Positions 22,633 through 32,954 of a stretch of 38,555 bases of DNA are shown in pieces. Origin of the DNA: Streptomyces sp. SID14436 (GTDB taxonomy: Bacteria > Actinomycetota > Actinomycetes > Streptomycetales > Streptomycetaceae); the NCBI RefSeq assembly GCF_010548465.1, contig NZ_JAAGMD010000538.1:1-38555 (forward strand), read 5' to 3'. Both the position numbers and the translations under genes were made by a program. The first letter of the stretch is position 1; every line of letters starts with the position of its first letter. The notes beneath the pieces are model-generated. The model was not told the DNA's origin, did not search any database, and saw only the letters and a program-made list of their open reading frames with translations.

Positions 22633-23562
22633 ATGCCAGCGAGCTACGCGTATCTCGGCCCCGAGGGCACCTTCACCGAAGTCGCCCTGCGCACCCTCCC
22701 GGAGACGGCCACCCGGGAGCTCGTCCCGTACGTGTCCGTGCAGTCCGCGCTCGACGCCGTCCGCGCGGGCGAGGCGGAGGCCGCGTTCGTGCCGATCGAG
22801 AACTCCGTCGAGGGCGGCATCACCACCACCCTCGACGAGCTGGTCGCGGGCAGCCCGCTGATGATCTACCGCGAGGTGCTGCTGTCGATCACCTTCGCCC
22901 TGCTGGTCCGCCCCGGCACCAAGATGTCGGACATCAAGACGGTCACCGCGCATCCGGCGGCCCAGCCGCAGGTCCGCAACTGGATGAAGGCGCACCTGCC
23001 GGACGTGCACTGGGAGTCGGCCGCCTCGAACGCGGACGGGGCGCGGCTGGTCCAGGAGGGCCGGTACGACGCCGCCTTCGCCGGGGAGTTCGCGGCGGCC
23101 CGGTACGGGCTCGAGCCGCTGGAGACCGGGATCCACGACGCGGAGAACGCCCAGACCCGGTTCGTGCTGGTGGGCCGCCCCGCACGGCCCGCGGCCCCCA
23201 CGGGTGCCGACAAGACCTCCGTGGTGCTGTGGCAGCGGGACGACCACCCCGGCGGACTGCGCGATCTGCTGGGCGAGTTCGCCACGCGGGGCATCAACCT
23301 GATGCTGCTGCAGTCCCGGCCGACCGGCGCCGGCATCGGCAACTACTGCTTCTGCATCGACGCCGAGGGCCACATCTCCGACCGGAGGGTCGCCGAGGCG
23401 CTGATGGGCCTCAAGCGGATCTGCCTCCAGGTGCGCTTCCTCGGCTCCTACCCGCGGGCCGACGCCGGACCGGGATCGCATCCCTCGCTTCCGGGGACGT
23501 CGGACGAGGAGTTCGTGGCGGCGGCGGACTGGGTGGCGCGCTGCCAGGACGGCCGGTTCTGA
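22633..23562 (+). CDS. pheA: Prephenate dehydratase
   Basis: This encodes 309 residues. It converts prephenate to phenylpyruvate in phenylalanine synthesis. The PDT domain (1-185) has AYLGPEGTFTEVAL, VPIENSVEGGITTTLDEL and the catalytic TRF motif in NAQTRFVLVG. An ACT regulatory domain follows (about 200-280) with HPGGLRDLLGEFATRGINLMLLQSRPT, where phenylalanine would bind for feedback inhibition. It is monofunctional, with no chorismate mutase domain. It lies 70 bases after the peroxidase gene but has its own candidate promoter. Confidence 0.95.
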   Translation: MPASYAYLGPEGTFTEVALRTLPETATRELVPYVSVQSALDAVRAGEAEAAFVPIENSVEGGITTTLDELVAGSPLMIYREVLLSITFALLVRPGTKMSDIKTVTAHPAAQPQVRNWMKAHLPDVHWESAASNADGARLVQEGRYDAAFAGEFAAARYGLEPLETGIHDAENAQTRFVLVGRPARPAAPTGADKTSVVLWQRDDHPGGLRDLLGEFATRGINLMLLQSRPTGAGIGNYCFCIDAEGHISDRRVAEALMGLKRICLQVRFLGSYPRADAGPGSHPSLPGTSDEEFVAAADWVARCQDGRF

Positions 23563-23655
23563 GACCCCGTTCTGAGAGCCGGTACGCGTGTGACGGATGG
23601 GGCCCCAGGGCGTCGGCCGTCGGTCCTACCTGCTGATCTTCGCCATCCACAGGAG

Positions 23656-23664
23656 TTATCCACA
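23656..23664 (+). promoter_or_regulatory. DnaA box, perfect TTATCCACA
   Basis: Exact match to the classical DnaA 9-mer; leftmost strong site of the cluster between pheA and serS. Confidence 0.75.
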
Positions 23665-23680
23665 GGTCCGCTTCTCGACC

Positions 23681-23689
23681 TGGGGACAA
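23681..23689 (-). promoter_or_regulatory. DnaA box, TTGTCCCCA (one mismatch)
   Basis: Reads TTGTCCCCA on the minus strand, one base from the Streptomyces preference TTGTCCACA; 16 bases from the first box. Confidence 0.5.
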
Positions 23690-23822
23690 GTCGACACCAA
23701 GGTGCCGTACGGTCGACAAATCGCCCTTCTAGCCATGATCGCTGCCACCTGGCGGCACATCACCCTTCGTCCACTCTTTTCCCTGCGTCAACCCTTTGAG
23801 GTGACGCCTTTCCACTCGAAAG

Positions 23823-23831
23823 TGGGGATAA
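23823..23831 (-). promoter_or_regulatory. DnaA box, TTATCCCCA (one mismatch)
   Basis: Minus-strand TTATCCCCA; one base from the consensus. Confidence 0.5.
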
Positions 23832-23890
23832 AGCGAGGTCGGACCGGGAATCCTCGACGCCGGCCGAGCCTTTCGGAGTGATCAATTCCA

Positions 23891-23899
23891 ATGTCCACA
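23891..23899 (+). promoter_or_regulatory. DnaA box, ATGTCCACA (one mismatch)
   Basis: Only the first base differs from TTGTCCACA, a position that tolerates change. Confidence 0.6.
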
Positions 23900-23915
23900 G
23901 ATCTTCCCCACACCC

Positions 23916-23924
23916 TGTGGATAA
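23916..23924 (-). promoter_or_regulatory. DnaA box, perfect TTATCCACA
   Basis: Exact consensus on the minus strand, 16 bases from the previous box, forming a closely spaced inverted pair. Confidence 0.75.
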
Positions 23925-23946
23925 CTTTCCCCGCAGCGGCGACCTC

Positions 23947-23955
23947 TGTGGACAA
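23947..23955 (-). promoter_or_regulatory. DnaA box, perfect TTGTCCACA
   Basis: Exact match to the preferred Streptomyces DnaA box on the minus strand, about two helical turns from the previous one. Confidence 0.8.
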
Positions 23956-24136
23956 GCAACTCCCAAGTCCCCTGCCCCGCAAGGGAATCCAGTCAATCAC
24001 CACACCCTCGCCTGACCCGTTCCGGGGAACCGATCACCCTCATTGACCGCGAGGAACACAAGGCGCAATTCGCCAATAACGGAACGTAAGCCACCCCGGT
24101 CGCAATAGTGGGTCGTGGCCCGTCACCGCACACCGG

Positions 24137-24142
24137 TAGCCT
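24137..24142 (+). promoter_or_regulatory. Candidate -10 element (TAGCCT) of serS, leaderless
   Basis: TAGCCT ends 7 bases before the GTG at 24150, placing the transcript start at the start codon. The absence of any ribosome site before this GTG supports leaderless translation. Confidence 0.45.
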
Positions 24143-24149
24143 TGACCGC

Positions 24150-25427
24150 GTGATTGACCTTCGCCTGCTCCGTGAGGACCCCGACCGTGTGCGTGCGTCG
24201 CAGCGCGCCCGTGGAGAGGACGTCGCCCTCGTCGACTCCCTCCTGTCCGCCGACGAACGGCGCAGGTCGTCCGGCGTCCGCTTCGACGAGCTGCGCGCCG
24301 AACAGAAGGCACTCGGCAAGCTGATCCCCAAGGCGTCCGGTGACGAGAAGGCCGAGCTGCTGAAGAAGGCGGGCGAGCTCGCCGCCGCGGTGAAGGCCGC
24401 CGACGCCGAACGGGACGCCGCCGACGCCGAGACCCAGGAACTCCTGCTGCAGCTCAGCAACCTCGTCCACCCCGACGTCCCCGTCGGCGGCGAGGAGGAC
24501 TTCGTCACGCTGGAGACGCACGGCACCGTCCGCGACTTCGGCGCCGAGGGCTTCGAGCCCAAGGACCACCTGGAACTCGGCCAGATCCTCGGCGCCATCG
24601 ACGTCGAGCGCGGCGCGAAGGTCTCCGGATCCCGCTTCTACTTCCTGACCGGTGTCGGCGCCCTGCTCGAGCTGGCGCTGGTCAACGCGGCGATCGCGCA
24701 GGCCACCGCCGCCGGCTTCACCCCGATGCTCACCCCGGCCCTGGTCCGCCCCCAGTCGATGGCGGGCACCGGCTTCCTCGGCCAGGCCGCCCAGGACGTG
24801 TACCACCTCGACAAGGACGACCTCTACCTGGTCGGCACGTCCGAGGTGCCCCTCGCCGCGTACCACATGGACGAGATCATCGAGGCGGACCGCCTGCCGC
24901 TGCGCTACGCGGGCTTCTCGCCCTGCTTCCGCCGCGAGGCCGGCTCGCACGGCAAGGACACGCGCGGCATCTTCCGCGTGCACCAGTTCGACAAGGTCGA
25001 GATGTTCTCCTACGTCACCCCCGAGGAGTCGCAGGCGGAGCACCAGCGGCTGCTGGAGTGGGAGAAGCAGTGGCTGACGTCGCTGGAGCTGCCGTTCCGC
25101 GTGATCGACGTCGCCTCGGCCGACCTGGGCTCCTCCGCGGCACGCAAGTACGACTGCGAGGCGTGGATCCCGACCCAGGGCAAGTACCGCGAGCTGACCT
25201 CCACCTCGGACTGCACGGAGTTCCAGTCCCGGCGCCTGCAGATCCGGGTCCGTGAGGACAAGAAGGTGCGCCCGCTCGCCACGCTCAACGGCACCCTGTG
25301 CGCCGTACCGCGCACCATCGTGGCGATCCTGGAGAACCACCAGCAGGCCGACGGGTCGGTGCGCGTGCCCGAGGTGCTGCGCCCCTACCTGGGCGGCCGT
25401 GAACTGCTGGAGCCGGTCGCCAAGTGA
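24150..25427 (+). CDS. serS: Seryl-tRNA synthetase
   Basis: This encodes 425 residues of a class II synthetase that charges tRNA-Ser. The N-terminal tRNA-binding arm is a long helical coiled coil (about 10-100, with [25 protein letters not shown]). The catalytic domain has [16 protein letters not shown], the serine-specific [17 protein letters not shown], motif 2 ([18 protein letters not shown]) and motif 3 ([20 protein letters not shown]). The start GTG at 24150 gives [12 protein letters not shown], the usual N-terminus. It is coupled to the next gene by a 4-base overlap. Its cognate tRNA-Ser(UGA) gene lies at 4785-4871. Confidence 0.97.
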
Positions 25428-30479: not shown

Positions 30480-32273
30480 TTGACGAATGCTCTAACGACT
30501 GCGAGATTCGCCGTCATGACGGGGATCGACGGGGCGCGGGAGCGCCGGGTGCACGCGGGTGACGTCGAGTTGTGCGTGGCCGAGCTGGGGGATGCCGGAC
30601 GGCCCACGGTCGTCCTGGTGCACGGCTACCCCGACAGCAAGGAGGTGTGGTCGCGGCTCGCGACCCGGCTCGCCGAACACTTCCACGTCGTCGCGTACGA
30701 CGTGCGGGGCCACGGCCGGTCCACGGCACCCCGGCCGCTGCGGGGCGGCTTCACCCTGGAGAGACTGACCGACGACTTCCTGGCCGTGGCGGACGCGGTC
30801 AGCCCGGACCGCCCGGTGCACCTGGTGGGTCACGACTGGGGTTCCGTCCAGTCCTGGGAGTTCGCCACCGTCGGGCGCACCGAGGGCCGCATCGCGTCCT
30901 TCACCTCGATGTCCGGGCCGTCCCTCGACCACTTCGGCCACTGGATCAACAGCCGTCTGGCCCGGCCCACTCCGCGCCGGATCGGCCAGCTGCTCGGCCA
31001 GGGCGCCAAGTCCTGGTACATCTACCTGCTGCACACCCCGGTCCTGCCCGAACTGGCCTGGCGCGGCCCCCTCGGCAAGCGCTGGCCGGGCATCCTGCGG
31101 CGCGTCGAGAAGGTGCCCGGCGGCGACTACCCGACCCCCTCCCTGCCGTCCGACGCCGCCCACGGCGCCTGGCTGTACCGGGACAACGTCCGGCCCCGGC
31201 TGCGCGCGCCGCGCGCGGACGCCTACGCACACGTGCCCGTCCAGCTGATCACACCGCTGGGCGACCGCTTCCTCTCGGAGCACCTCTACGACGGACTGGA
31301 GCAGTGGGCGCCCCGCCTGACCCGGCGGACGCTGCCCACCGGCCACTGGGTGCCGCGCACCCGTCCCGACCAGCTGGCGTCCTGGATCACCGACTTCGTC
31401 GAGTCGGTGGAGGAGGGCAGGACGCGGACCGCGCCCCGGGGCCGGTACGCCGACCGGTTCGGCGGCCGGCTCGTGCTCGTCACCGGGGCCGGCAGCGGCA
31501 TCGGGCGGGCCACCGCGCTGGCGTTCGCCGCGGCGGGCGCGCGCGTGATCGCGGCCGACCGGGACACGGAGTCGGCGCGGCGCACCGCGGAGGAGGCCCG
31601 GCGGGGCGGCGCGCAGCGGGCCTGGGCGGAGACGGTGGACGTCTCCGACGAGCGCGGCATGGAGAAGTTCGCCGAGCGGGTCGGCGCCGAGTACGGCGTG
31701 GTGGACGTGCTGGTGAACAACGCCGGCGTCGGTCTCGGCGGCCCGTTCCTGGACACCACGGCGGAGGACTGGAGAAGGGTCCTCGACGTCAACCTGTGGG
31801 GCGTCATCCACGGCTGCCGCCTCTTCGGCCGGCAGATGGCCGAGCGGGGCCAGGGCGGCCACATCGTCAACGTCGCCTCGGCGGCGGCGTTCCTGCCGTC
31901 CCGGTCCCTGCCCGCCTACAGCACCTCCAAGGCGGCGGTGCTGATGCTGAGCGCCTGCCTGCGCGCGGAGCTGGCGGACCGGGACATCGGCGTGACGGCG
32001 ATCTGCCCGGGATTGGTCAACACCCCCATCACGTCCACCGCGCGGTTCGCGGGGGTGGCGGAGGAGGAGGAACAGCGGCTCCGGAAGCGGGCCGCGCGGC
32101 TCTACGGGCTGCGCAATTACCCGCCCGAGAAGGTCGCCGGGGCGATCCTGCGTGCGGTGGTGGACGACGAGGCGGTGGTGCCGGTGACCCCCGAGGCACG
32201 GGGCGGGTACGCGCTGTCGCGGTGGATGCCGGGGGCCCTGCGGCGGATCGCGCGGGTGAAGCCCCGGCTCTGA
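30480..32273 (+). CDS. EphD-like alpha/beta hydrolase (epoxide hydrolase type) fused to short-chain dehydrogenase
   Basis: This encodes 597 residues. The N-terminal alpha/beta hydrolase (about 20-315) has VLVHGYPDSKEVW, the nucleophile Asp119 in LVGHDWGS and a His289 (TGHWVPRTRP), the epoxide-hydrolase pattern. The C-terminal SDR (about 325-595) has TGAGSGIGRA for NAD(P), VLVNNAGVG, and Tyr480/Lys484 in YSTSKAA. The two-domain design and length match mycobacterial EphD, which acts on epoxidised mycolic acids; Streptomyces lacks mycolates, so the substrate must differ. TTG at 30480 is chosen because GGAGG ends 5 bases before it; ATG at 30516 (giving MTGIDGARERR) is the alternative and has no ribosome site. 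Confidence 0.87.
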   Translation: MTNALTTARFAVMTGIDGARERRVHAGDVELCVAELGDAGRPTVVLVHGYPDSKEVWSRLATRLAEHFHVVAYDVRGHGRSTAPRPLRGGFTLERLTDDFLAVADAVSPDRPVHLVGHDWGSVQSWEFATVGRTEGRIASFTSMSGPSLDHFGHWINSRLARPTPRRIGQLLGQGAKSWYIYLLHTPVLPELAWRGPLGKRWPGILRRVEKVPGGDYPTPSLPSDAAHGAWLYRDNVRPRLRAPRADAYAHVPVQLITPLGDRFLSEHLYDGLEQWAPRLTRRTLPTGHWVPRTRPDQLASWITDFVESVEEGRTRTAPRGRYADRFGGRLVLVTGAGSGIGRATALAFAAAGARVIAADRDTESARRTAEEARRGGAQRAWAETVDVSDERGMEKFAERVGAEYGVVDVLVNNAGVGLGGPFLDTTAEDWRRVLDVNLWGVIHGCRLFGRQMAERGQGGHIVNVASAAAFLPSRSLPAYSTSKAAVLMLSACLRAELADRDIGVTAICPGLVNTPITSTARFAGVAEEEEQRLRKRAARLYGLRNYPPEKVAGAILRAVVDDEAVVPVTPEARGGYALSRWMPGALRRIARVKPRL

Positions 32274-32282
32274 CGGCGGCGA

Positions 32283-32337
32283 CTGTCCACAGGATCCTCA
32301 CTTTTGCTTGTGGATAACTACCCTGAGCTGTGGATCA
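32283..32337. promoter_or_regulatory. Compact cluster of three DnaA boxes
   Basis: Within 55 bases: CTGTCCACA at 32283-32291 (+, one mismatch), a perfect TTATCCACA on the minus strand at 32309-32317, and TGATCCACA on the minus strand at 32329-32337 (one mismatch). The cluster lies between the SDR fusion and kptA, about 8.3 kb from the pheA-serS cluster. It starts 10 bases after the SDR gene's stop codon. Confidence 0.65.
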
Positions 32338-32393: not shown

Positions 32394-32954
32394 ATGAACG
32401 AACAACGCAGAATGAGGGTGTCGAAATACCTCTCCAGACACCTGCGGCACCACCCGGAACGAATCGGACTCACCCTCGACGAGGGTGGCTGGGCCGAGAT
32501 CGACACCCTGATCGCGGCGGCCGCCGCCCACGGCTTCCGGTTCACCCGGGAGGAGCTCGCCCACGTCGTCGACGCGGACGACAAGCGACGCTTCGCCGTC
32601 GAGGGCGCCCGGATCCGCGCCAGTCAGGGCCACAGCATCGAGATCGACCTGGGACTGCCGCCGGCCACCCCGCCGCCGTACCTGTACCACGGCACCGTCG
32701 CCCGCTTCCTGGACGCGATCCGCTCCGAGGGCCTGCGGCCCATGAACCGGCACGACGTCCACCTCTCGGCCGACCGCGAGACGGCGACCCGGGTCGGAGC
32801 CCGGCGCGGCCGTCCGGTGGTCCTCACGGTGGACGCCGGCGCCCTGCACGCCGACGGCCACGTCTTCCGGGTCAGCGCGAACGGCGTGTGGCTGACGGCG
32901 TCGGTGCCCTCCCGGTACCTGCGGTTTCCGCCGGACACATCCGACACGGCATGA
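32394..32954 (+). CDS. kptA: RNA 2'-phosphotransferase (Tpt1/KptA)
   Basis: This encodes 186 residues. It transfers a 2'-phosphate from RNA to NAD+, releasing nicotinamide and ADP-ribose cyclic phosphate. The N-terminal winged-helix part has RVSKYLSRHLRHHPERIGL (the RH...R RNA-phosphate pocket). The C-terminal ADP-ribosyltransferase-like part has YLYHGTVARF, then MNRHDVHLSADRETATRVGARRG with NAD-contacting residues, and ANGVWLTASVPSRYL. In fungi the enzyme completes tRNA splicing; bacteria lack that pathway, so its role here is unknown. The stop overlaps the next start (ATGA). The DnaA-box cluster lies directly upstream. Confidence 0.93.
   Translation: MNEQRRMRVSKYLSRHLRHHPERIGLTLDEGGWAEIDTLIAAAAAHGFRFTREELAHVVDADDKRRFAVEGARIRASQGHSIEIDLGLPPATPPPYLYHGTVARFLDAIRSEGLRPMNRHDVHLSADRETATRVGARRGRPVVLTVDAGALHADGHVFRVSANGVWLTASVPSRYLRFPPDTSDTA

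Follow-up and report, generated by a model that had tools for sequence, protein, structure and literature searches.

A conserved two-part cluster of DnaA boxes between pheA and serS in Streptomyces, a probable counterpart of D78

Introduction

DnaA is the initiator protein of chromosome replication, and clusters of its binding sites (DnaA boxes) outside oriC are often described as sponges. This raises the question of whether such a cluster is a collection of separate sites or a structure, and the question is posed by the gap between pheA and serS in a stretch of 38,555 nucleotides from Streptomyces sp. SID14436, hereafter the window. The D78 cluster of S. coelicolor, a DnaA-box cluster outside oriC, was reportedly described by Smulczyk-Krawczyszyn et al. 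in 2006 (J Bacteriol 188:6184), and its phenotype is said to fit a DnaA sink. If many species preserve the helix face between the two halves of the pheA-serS cluster, beyond the number of its boxes, the cluster is a structure.

Results

DnaA boxes in the pheA-serS gap

An earlier note on this DNA had recorded three perfect and three one-mismatch matches to TTRTCCACA on both strands of 23643-23955. All six were found at their places, with the last three boxes 16 and 22 bases apart as the note had given them (Table 1). The lower GC of the gap was also confirmed (0.58-0.62 vs 0.69-0.76 in the flanking genes), and so was a box density far over chance: allowing up to one mismatch, the window holds 15 matches vs 3.8 expected, and none of 100 shuffles reached 15. 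A genome-wide count revealed 46 perfect boxes in 6.84 Mb (908 contigs), three of which are located here. At this genome rate, the probability of three perfect boxes in 300 bp is about 1e-9 for any one 300-bp stretch and about 1e-4 for the genome as a whole. The pheA-serS cluster (cluster A) consists of dense, consensus-type DnaA boxes outside oriC, which places it with clusters of the D78 type. A second cluster of three boxes (cluster B, window 32283-32337) had been missed by the earlier note.

Cluster A is composed of two half-clusters, boxes 1-3 and boxes 4-7, and a facing pair of boxes at 25 bp occurs twice, once per half. Box 1 is decayed in the window, and in the relatives its position is mostly occupied by a perfect box, TTATCCACA or TTGTCCACA, 13 bp ahead of box 2. 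Box 6, between boxes 5 and 7, is present in some relatives. Besides the boxes, the spacer (window 23690-23910) shows short conserved blocks, namely two GTCGAC sites, GGAATGATCAATTCC and an inverted repeat with the consensus CCATTTCCACCCGAAAGTGG, which may be sites for another factor.

Such short conserved blocks, some of them palindromic, would be expected if the gap held an RNA element or the site of another regulator and the boxes were incidental. However, no Rfam match reached the gathering score (two weak, chance-like matches were seen), no terminator-like site was found in the gap, and no consensus structure emerged past a six-pair stem of the two GTCGAC blocks, with a covariation of -0.03 (37 of 73 spacers). 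An RNA element was rejected on these results. The boxes are among the best conserved columns, and we consider an RNA element or another regulator's site to be very improbable.

Table 1. Features of the pheA-serS gap and of cluster B in the window
Feature	Position	Strand	Description	Pfam	Mean column conservation
pheA	22633..23562	+	prephenate dehydratase with ACT domain; upstream neighbour	PF00800, PF01842	
Box 1	23643..23651	+	CCATCCACA, two mismatches, decayed		0.89
Box 2	23656..23664	+	TTATCCACA, perfect; left half-cluster		1.00
Box 3	23681..23689	-	TTGTCCCCA, one mismatch, the mismatch conserved too; faces box 2 at 25 bp		0.98
Central spacer	23690..23915	.	between the half-clusters; box 3 to box 5 start-to-start 235 bp here		
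Weakly conserved box	23823..23831	-	TTATCCCCA, one mismatch		0.67
Box 4	23891..23899	+	ATGTCCACA, one mismatch; TCCACA core conserved; faces box 5 at 25 bp		0.84
Box 5	23916..23924	-	TTATCCACA, perfect; right half-cluster		0.99
Box 7	23947..23955	-	TTGTCCACA, perfect; 31 bp after box 5		0.94
serS	24150..25427	+	seryl-tRNA synthetase; downstream neighbour	PF02403, PF00587	
Cluster B box I	32283..32291	+	CTGTCCACA here; TTGTCCACA in most relatives having cluster B		
Cluster B box II	32309..32317	-	TTATCCACA, perfect		
Cluster B box III	32329..32337	-	TGATCCACA		
kptA-like gene	32394..32954	+	RNA 2'-phosphotransferase; adjoins cluster B	PF01885	

Conservation and age of the cluster

Relatives were collected by a SerS search of genome contigs, and the best 80 of 575 loci were used together with the window (81 sequences); 79 of the 80 have Streptomyces in their titles, and the title of the other (L075) is 'Actinobacteria bacterium'. 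Within 620 bp upstream of serS, every one of the 81 sequences has two or more perfect boxes, and the mean there is 3.40 perfect boxes per 620 bp vs 0.0585 elsewhere in the same loci. The columns of boxes 1, 2, 3, 4, 5 and 7 have a mean conservation of 0.84-1.00, those of the rest of the gap 0.65, and the flanks give 0.75 at the end of pheA and 0.96 at the start of serS. Compared across species, the boxes were found to be conserved, rather than lost while the flanking genes are kept, and strong selection on them is supported by this comparison. Chance clustering, which none of the shuffles had reproduced, is refuted by the conservation and has a negligible probability. The full layout with a 235-bp spacer, and both clusters A and B, are present in S. 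violaceoruber (L002), which we take to be very close to S. coelicolor.

In the wider sample, the family's other genera contributed 49 loci (51 non-Streptomyces genomes, two of them with a paralogue only), and there were 51 outgroup loci, of which 11 represent sister families (15 genomes) and 40 the remainder of the class (224 genomes). Two or more perfect boxes were found no farther than 900 bp from serS in 34 of the 49 family loci, exactly those in which the end of pheA is also within 900 bp upstream, and a perfect box at this distance was found in none of the 51 outgroup loci. The pheA gene is located within 900 bp upstream of serS in 19 of the 40 class loci, 16 of these within 260 bp. The gene pair therefore predates the boxes, as box-free class loci already have the pair. 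In eight of the other 15 family loci (seven from genus g105 and one from g106), a cluster is found farther away, 1.0-1.4 kb upstream of serS, and contains one to three perfect boxes; the last seven (L112, L115, L121, L124, L127-L129) have neither pheA nor a box cluster in the 1.5 kb upstream. In G552, one of these seven, the box pattern gave 57 matches genome-wide vs 56 for the reversed control pattern. Judged by these sequences, the cluster is common to all Streptomyces examined and to many other family members by inheritance.

A separate observation concerns G537 of the same family (e.g. L112 7829-8139), whose genome holds 320 perfect TTRTCCACA vs 9 for the reversed control; the other genomes counted beside it have 46, 56 and 57 perfect boxes. 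Many of the 100 places listed for G537 form pairs or triplets with intervals of 75-110 bp and apparently belong to a dispersed repeat.

Spacing between the boxes

The distances inside cluster A are rigid. In the window and the best 80 of 575 loci, boxes 2 and 3 are separated by 25 bp in 78 of 81 sequences, boxes 3 and 5 by 234-235 bp in 63 and boxes 5 and 7 by 30-31 bp in 74, and the outer distances of the same sequences are loose, with a standard deviation of 29.5 bp from the pheA stop to box 2 and 33.7 bp from box 7 to serS. Among the larger departures from 235 bp in this first set, 244-246 bp is conspicuous.

A search for off-modal spacing in 392 Streptomyces genomes required exact copies of these four boxes, with spacers of 204-233 and 236-266 bp; genomes with the modal 234-235 bp are excluded by design and those with any altered box are invisible to it. 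It revealed 50 longer and 15 shorter central spacers. Measured from box 2 to the end of box 7, the matches span 295-298 bp (15 matches), 300-301 bp (14), 306-311 bp (20), 317-321 bp (13) and 327-329 bp (3), with none of the 65 matches at 302-305, 312-316 or 322-326 bp. Alignment placed insertions of 10, 11, 20 and 22 bp at varied positions of the spacer (about 0, 10, 35-70, 100, 115, 120, 165 and 195-200), many of the pairwise alignments also having small compensating gaps, and the different positions argue for separate events. Changes of the central spacer beyond a few bases come mostly as growth by about 10 or about 20 bp. Off-phase spacers also exist, of 251 bp (L100, L104), 224 bp (L048), 238 bp (L256), 271 bp (L255), 277 bp (L254) and 248 bp.

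Helical phasing on a serS tree

In addition, 15 stretches unselected for spacing were fetched, one being from a genome already among the 65. The full layout was parsed in 174 of 210 loci (75 of the 81, 20 of the 49 from other genera, all 65, and 14 of the 15), and the other 36 were excluded. A tree was built from the first 600 bp of serS with 171 tips, one genome being present twice (L199, L268). Phasing was expressed as the mean cosine of spacer changes of 4-40 bp at a given period, with parsimony step sizes that are approximate and a tree that covers part of one gene. Over all tips, the mean cosine at 10.5 bp is 0.51 for the central spacer (n = 46), 0.37 for the serS-side spacer (0.47 at 11 bp; n = 58) and 0.08 for the pheA-side spacer (n = 64), or -0.06 (n = 66) under another tie rule. 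Compared with the pheA-side step sizes, the central spacer yields p values of 0.00005 at 10.5 bp and 0.004 at 11 bp and the serS-side spacer 0.0008 and 0.00015; these phasing p values and those below carry no correction for the five to eight periods examined.

In the 109 tips unselected for off-modal spacing, the centre is weaker, with 0.36 (n = 21; p 0.03 vs the pheA-side null and 0.007 vs a jitter null), and the serS side gives 0.47 (n = 48, p 0.00005), with values of up to 0.56 (n = 48). The 62 tips chosen for off-modal spacing give 0.45 at the centre (n = 24), -0.30 on the pheA side (n = 25) and 0.19-0.24 on the serS side (n = 21). The pheA-side spacer has a mild excess at 11.5-12 bp, of 0.18 over all tips and 0.26-0.31 over the unselected tips. 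No clear phasing was observed in the gap before pheA (0.18 at 10.5 bp; n = 18, small) or in the convergent gap after serS (0.09 at 10.5 bp and 0.31 at 10 bp; n = 8, small). Phasing as a generic feature of indels in the region was set against the pheA-side spacer, which is without phasing at 10.5 bp (n = 64-66), and was rejected.

The serS side of the cluster

The earlier note had suggested that DnaA could regulate serS, and the cluster might be a remote operator or an upstream activating region of a DnaA-responsive serS promoter. The distance from box 7 to serS is indeed helically phased, both over all tips at 11 bp and, with up to 0.56, in the unselected genomes, suggesting a contact with the serS promoter too. 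In addition, a strongly conserved CACCGGTAGCCTTGACC stands directly ahead of the GTG start of serS (window 24128-24152), and its abutting the start suggests a leaderless promoter; a simple promoter scan of the pheA-serS gap found no promoter. However, the off-modal tips give the low serS-side values above, and even box 7, the one closest to serS, ends 194 bp ahead of the gene, with the cluster 1.0-1.4 kb away in the eight loci of two other genera. In L118, L131 and L132, the three of these eight that were examined, an oppositely oriented ORF occupies the interval between the cluster and serS, from about 0.1 to 1.0 kb ahead of the gene; it has 316 codons in L118, 282 in L131 and 266 in L132, and its N-terminus is lipoprotein-like in the last two. 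Two genera keep their boxes about 1 kb from serS, so control of serS does not account for the cluster in every lineage. The phased distance thus stands in favour of the suggestion and the separation from serS against it, and we regard serS control as possible, though clearly short of probable.

Position in the chromosome and passive titration

In L036, L046, L050 and L051, the pheA-serS locus is located 77-93 kb from dnaA, contig C1 being assumed to be the locus record, and is origin-proximal. In the genome of the window, dnaA is found on contig C870 and the window is contig C814; a box array taken for oriC is located beside dnaA (C870 32010-32430), and the pheA-serS locus does not adjoin dnaA as oriC does. 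About 20 kb from dnaA on the same contig, L085 13066-13267 contains three perfect boxes and one TTGTGCACA, with neighbouring ORFs that by eye resemble a rhomboid-family protein and a peptidyl-prolyl isomerase. This group may correspond to another of the clusters published for S. coelicolor.

The D78 cosmid name presumably places the published cluster in the same genomic neighbourhood, and the pheA-serS cluster is probably the counterpart of S. coelicolor D78. The two conserved clusters A and B, 8 kb apart, compete for the name, and cluster B could be all or part of D78. Among the open-licence papers listed, none was seen to place D78, and no SCD78 gene names were found for Streptomyces.

A DnaA titration locus, as the earlier note had proposed, agrees with a selected cluster that is near the origin in relatives and in the neighbourhood that the note had named; however, the phased spacer is not explained by simple titration. 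If the boxes were independent high-affinity sites soaking up DnaA with no higher-order structure, their density and consensus-type sequences would be accounted for, and the datA-like clusters reported in S. coelicolor fit a DnaA sink. Independent sites, however, need neither fixed inner distances nor steps of about one turn, and just three of the 46 perfect boxes in the genome are here. Passive titration is therefore, in our judgement, an unlikely explanation.

Cluster B

Cluster B sits 8 kb downstream of the pheA-serS cluster, and its neighbour opposite the kptA-like gene is a fusion gene of an alpha/beta-hydrolase and a short-chain dehydrogenase (30480-32270). The layout + 25/26 - 19/20 - was found in 58 of 81 sequences (window and best 80 of 575) by a search that allowed 23-28 and 17-23 bp. 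Among these 58, the first spacing is 25 bp in 47 sequences and 26 bp in the other 11, and 55 have a second spacing of 20 bp, against 19 bp in the remaining 3. The loci were covered to about 11.3 kb past the serS start, and in five of the 23 sequences without cluster B the contig ends before 7.3 kb. The exact cluster B consensus is present in 165 of 295 Streptomyces genomes, and the genome of the window differs from it by one change in box I. The distance from cluster B to kptA is 65 bp in 26 of the 58 loci and 64 to 183 bp in the others, which is not obviously helical.

Between clusters A and B, nine of the 80 relatives (best 80 of 575; L018, L040, L050, L055, L056, L061, L065, L068 and L077) have a third, less regular group of two or three boxes, one or more of them perfect, some 6.3-6.9 kb downstream of serS. 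One-mismatch box pairs occur in the same stretch in L013 and L017.

Cluster B is similar to the core of E. coli DARS1 and DARS2, as described in PMC8682772 and PMC4245941, in having three boxes with one facing two (+,-,-). This order and orientation, the near-invariant spacing and the wide occurrence of the exact consensus, together with the facing 25-bp pair that occurs twice in the pheA-serS cluster, would suit a nucleotide switch, in which the pheA-serS locus or cluster B acts like datA (ATP-DnaA turnover) or like DARS (ADP-DnaA recharging). However, the boxes of DARS1 and DARS2 were measured at + 14 - 12 -, not at the 25 and 20 bp (25-26 and 19-20 bp) of Streptomyces cluster B. Cluster B as a DARS was rejected on spacing, and a site that works like a DARS was retained. 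Such a switch appears improbable to us.

Discussion

Based on the rigid inner distances, the phased central spacer and the position near the origin in relatives, we propose that the pheA-serS locus is a cluster of the D78 kind in which two phased half-clusters form a looped DnaA complex that restrains initiation, a reading that we hold to be probable on balance. The half-clusters would be kept on fixed helix faces by the spacer of about 235 bp. Since sets of boxes that hold fixed helix faces over such a distance are a classic sign of proteins meeting across a loop, DnaA at both halves may join via its dimerising domain I and long domain II, giving a loop or hairpin as reported for the two clusters of oriC. 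At 77-93 kb from dnaA, as measured in four relatives, the locus would be copied shortly after replication starts, in keeping with a check on re-initiation; once doubled, it would tie up DnaA or alter its nucleotide state, and further initiation would be restrained. The role in initiation is proposed because the published datA-like clusters of S. coelicolor are reported to repress untimely initiation. The sequences show the boxes, their conservation, the fixed spacing, the phasing and the nearness to the origin in relatives; DnaA occupancy, a loop and an effect on initiation are inferred.

A bolder form of the looped complex would make it a miniature of the oriC hairpin without unwinding, which actively sets DnaA availability or nucleotide state and, through its phasing to the serS start, passes the DnaA state to serS expression, with cluster B as a stretched DARS-like partner. 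We regard this combination as speculative and rather doubtful.

If the looped complex is real, it would represent a second use for the unusually long linker of Streptomyces DnaA and a defined handle on replication restraint during development. If the pheA-serS cluster is D78, the locus itself has presumably been known since 2006; the family-wide conservation, cluster B and the phasing of the spacer come from the present analysis. To our knowledge, the phased bipartite layout does not appear in Smulczyk-Krawczyszyn et al. 2006. No mention of the family-wide conservation, the second cluster or the phasing was seen among the listed open-licence papers, which omit most subscription titles, and none of the papers listed on Streptomyces DnaA loops or DnaA ChIP-seq concerned this locus.

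Similar to S. coelicolor D78, the pheA-serS cluster consists of DnaA boxes outside oriC in an origin-proximal position in Streptomyces. The datA-like DnaA-box clusters of S. coelicolor repress untimely initiation according to three papers citing Smulczyk-Krawczyszyn 2006, and chromosomal DnaA-box clusters of B. subtilis are likewise reported to do so (Okumura 2012, as cited elsewhere). The E. coli datA is also a non-coding DnaA-box cluster thought to restrain initiation, whose position relative to the origin matters. However, it is reported to act with IHF via ATP hydrolysis, and its boxes, as scanned, have an order and spacing unlike those of the pheA-serS cluster. The oriC of Streptomyces also has two DnaA-box groups split by a spacer, although 19 boxes are reported there over nearly 1 kb. 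In S. coelicolor, DnaA complexes on both sides of the oriC spacer form a hairpin-like structure (PMC5448010), and the same hairpin idea has been proposed for S. lividans according to PMC13270200.
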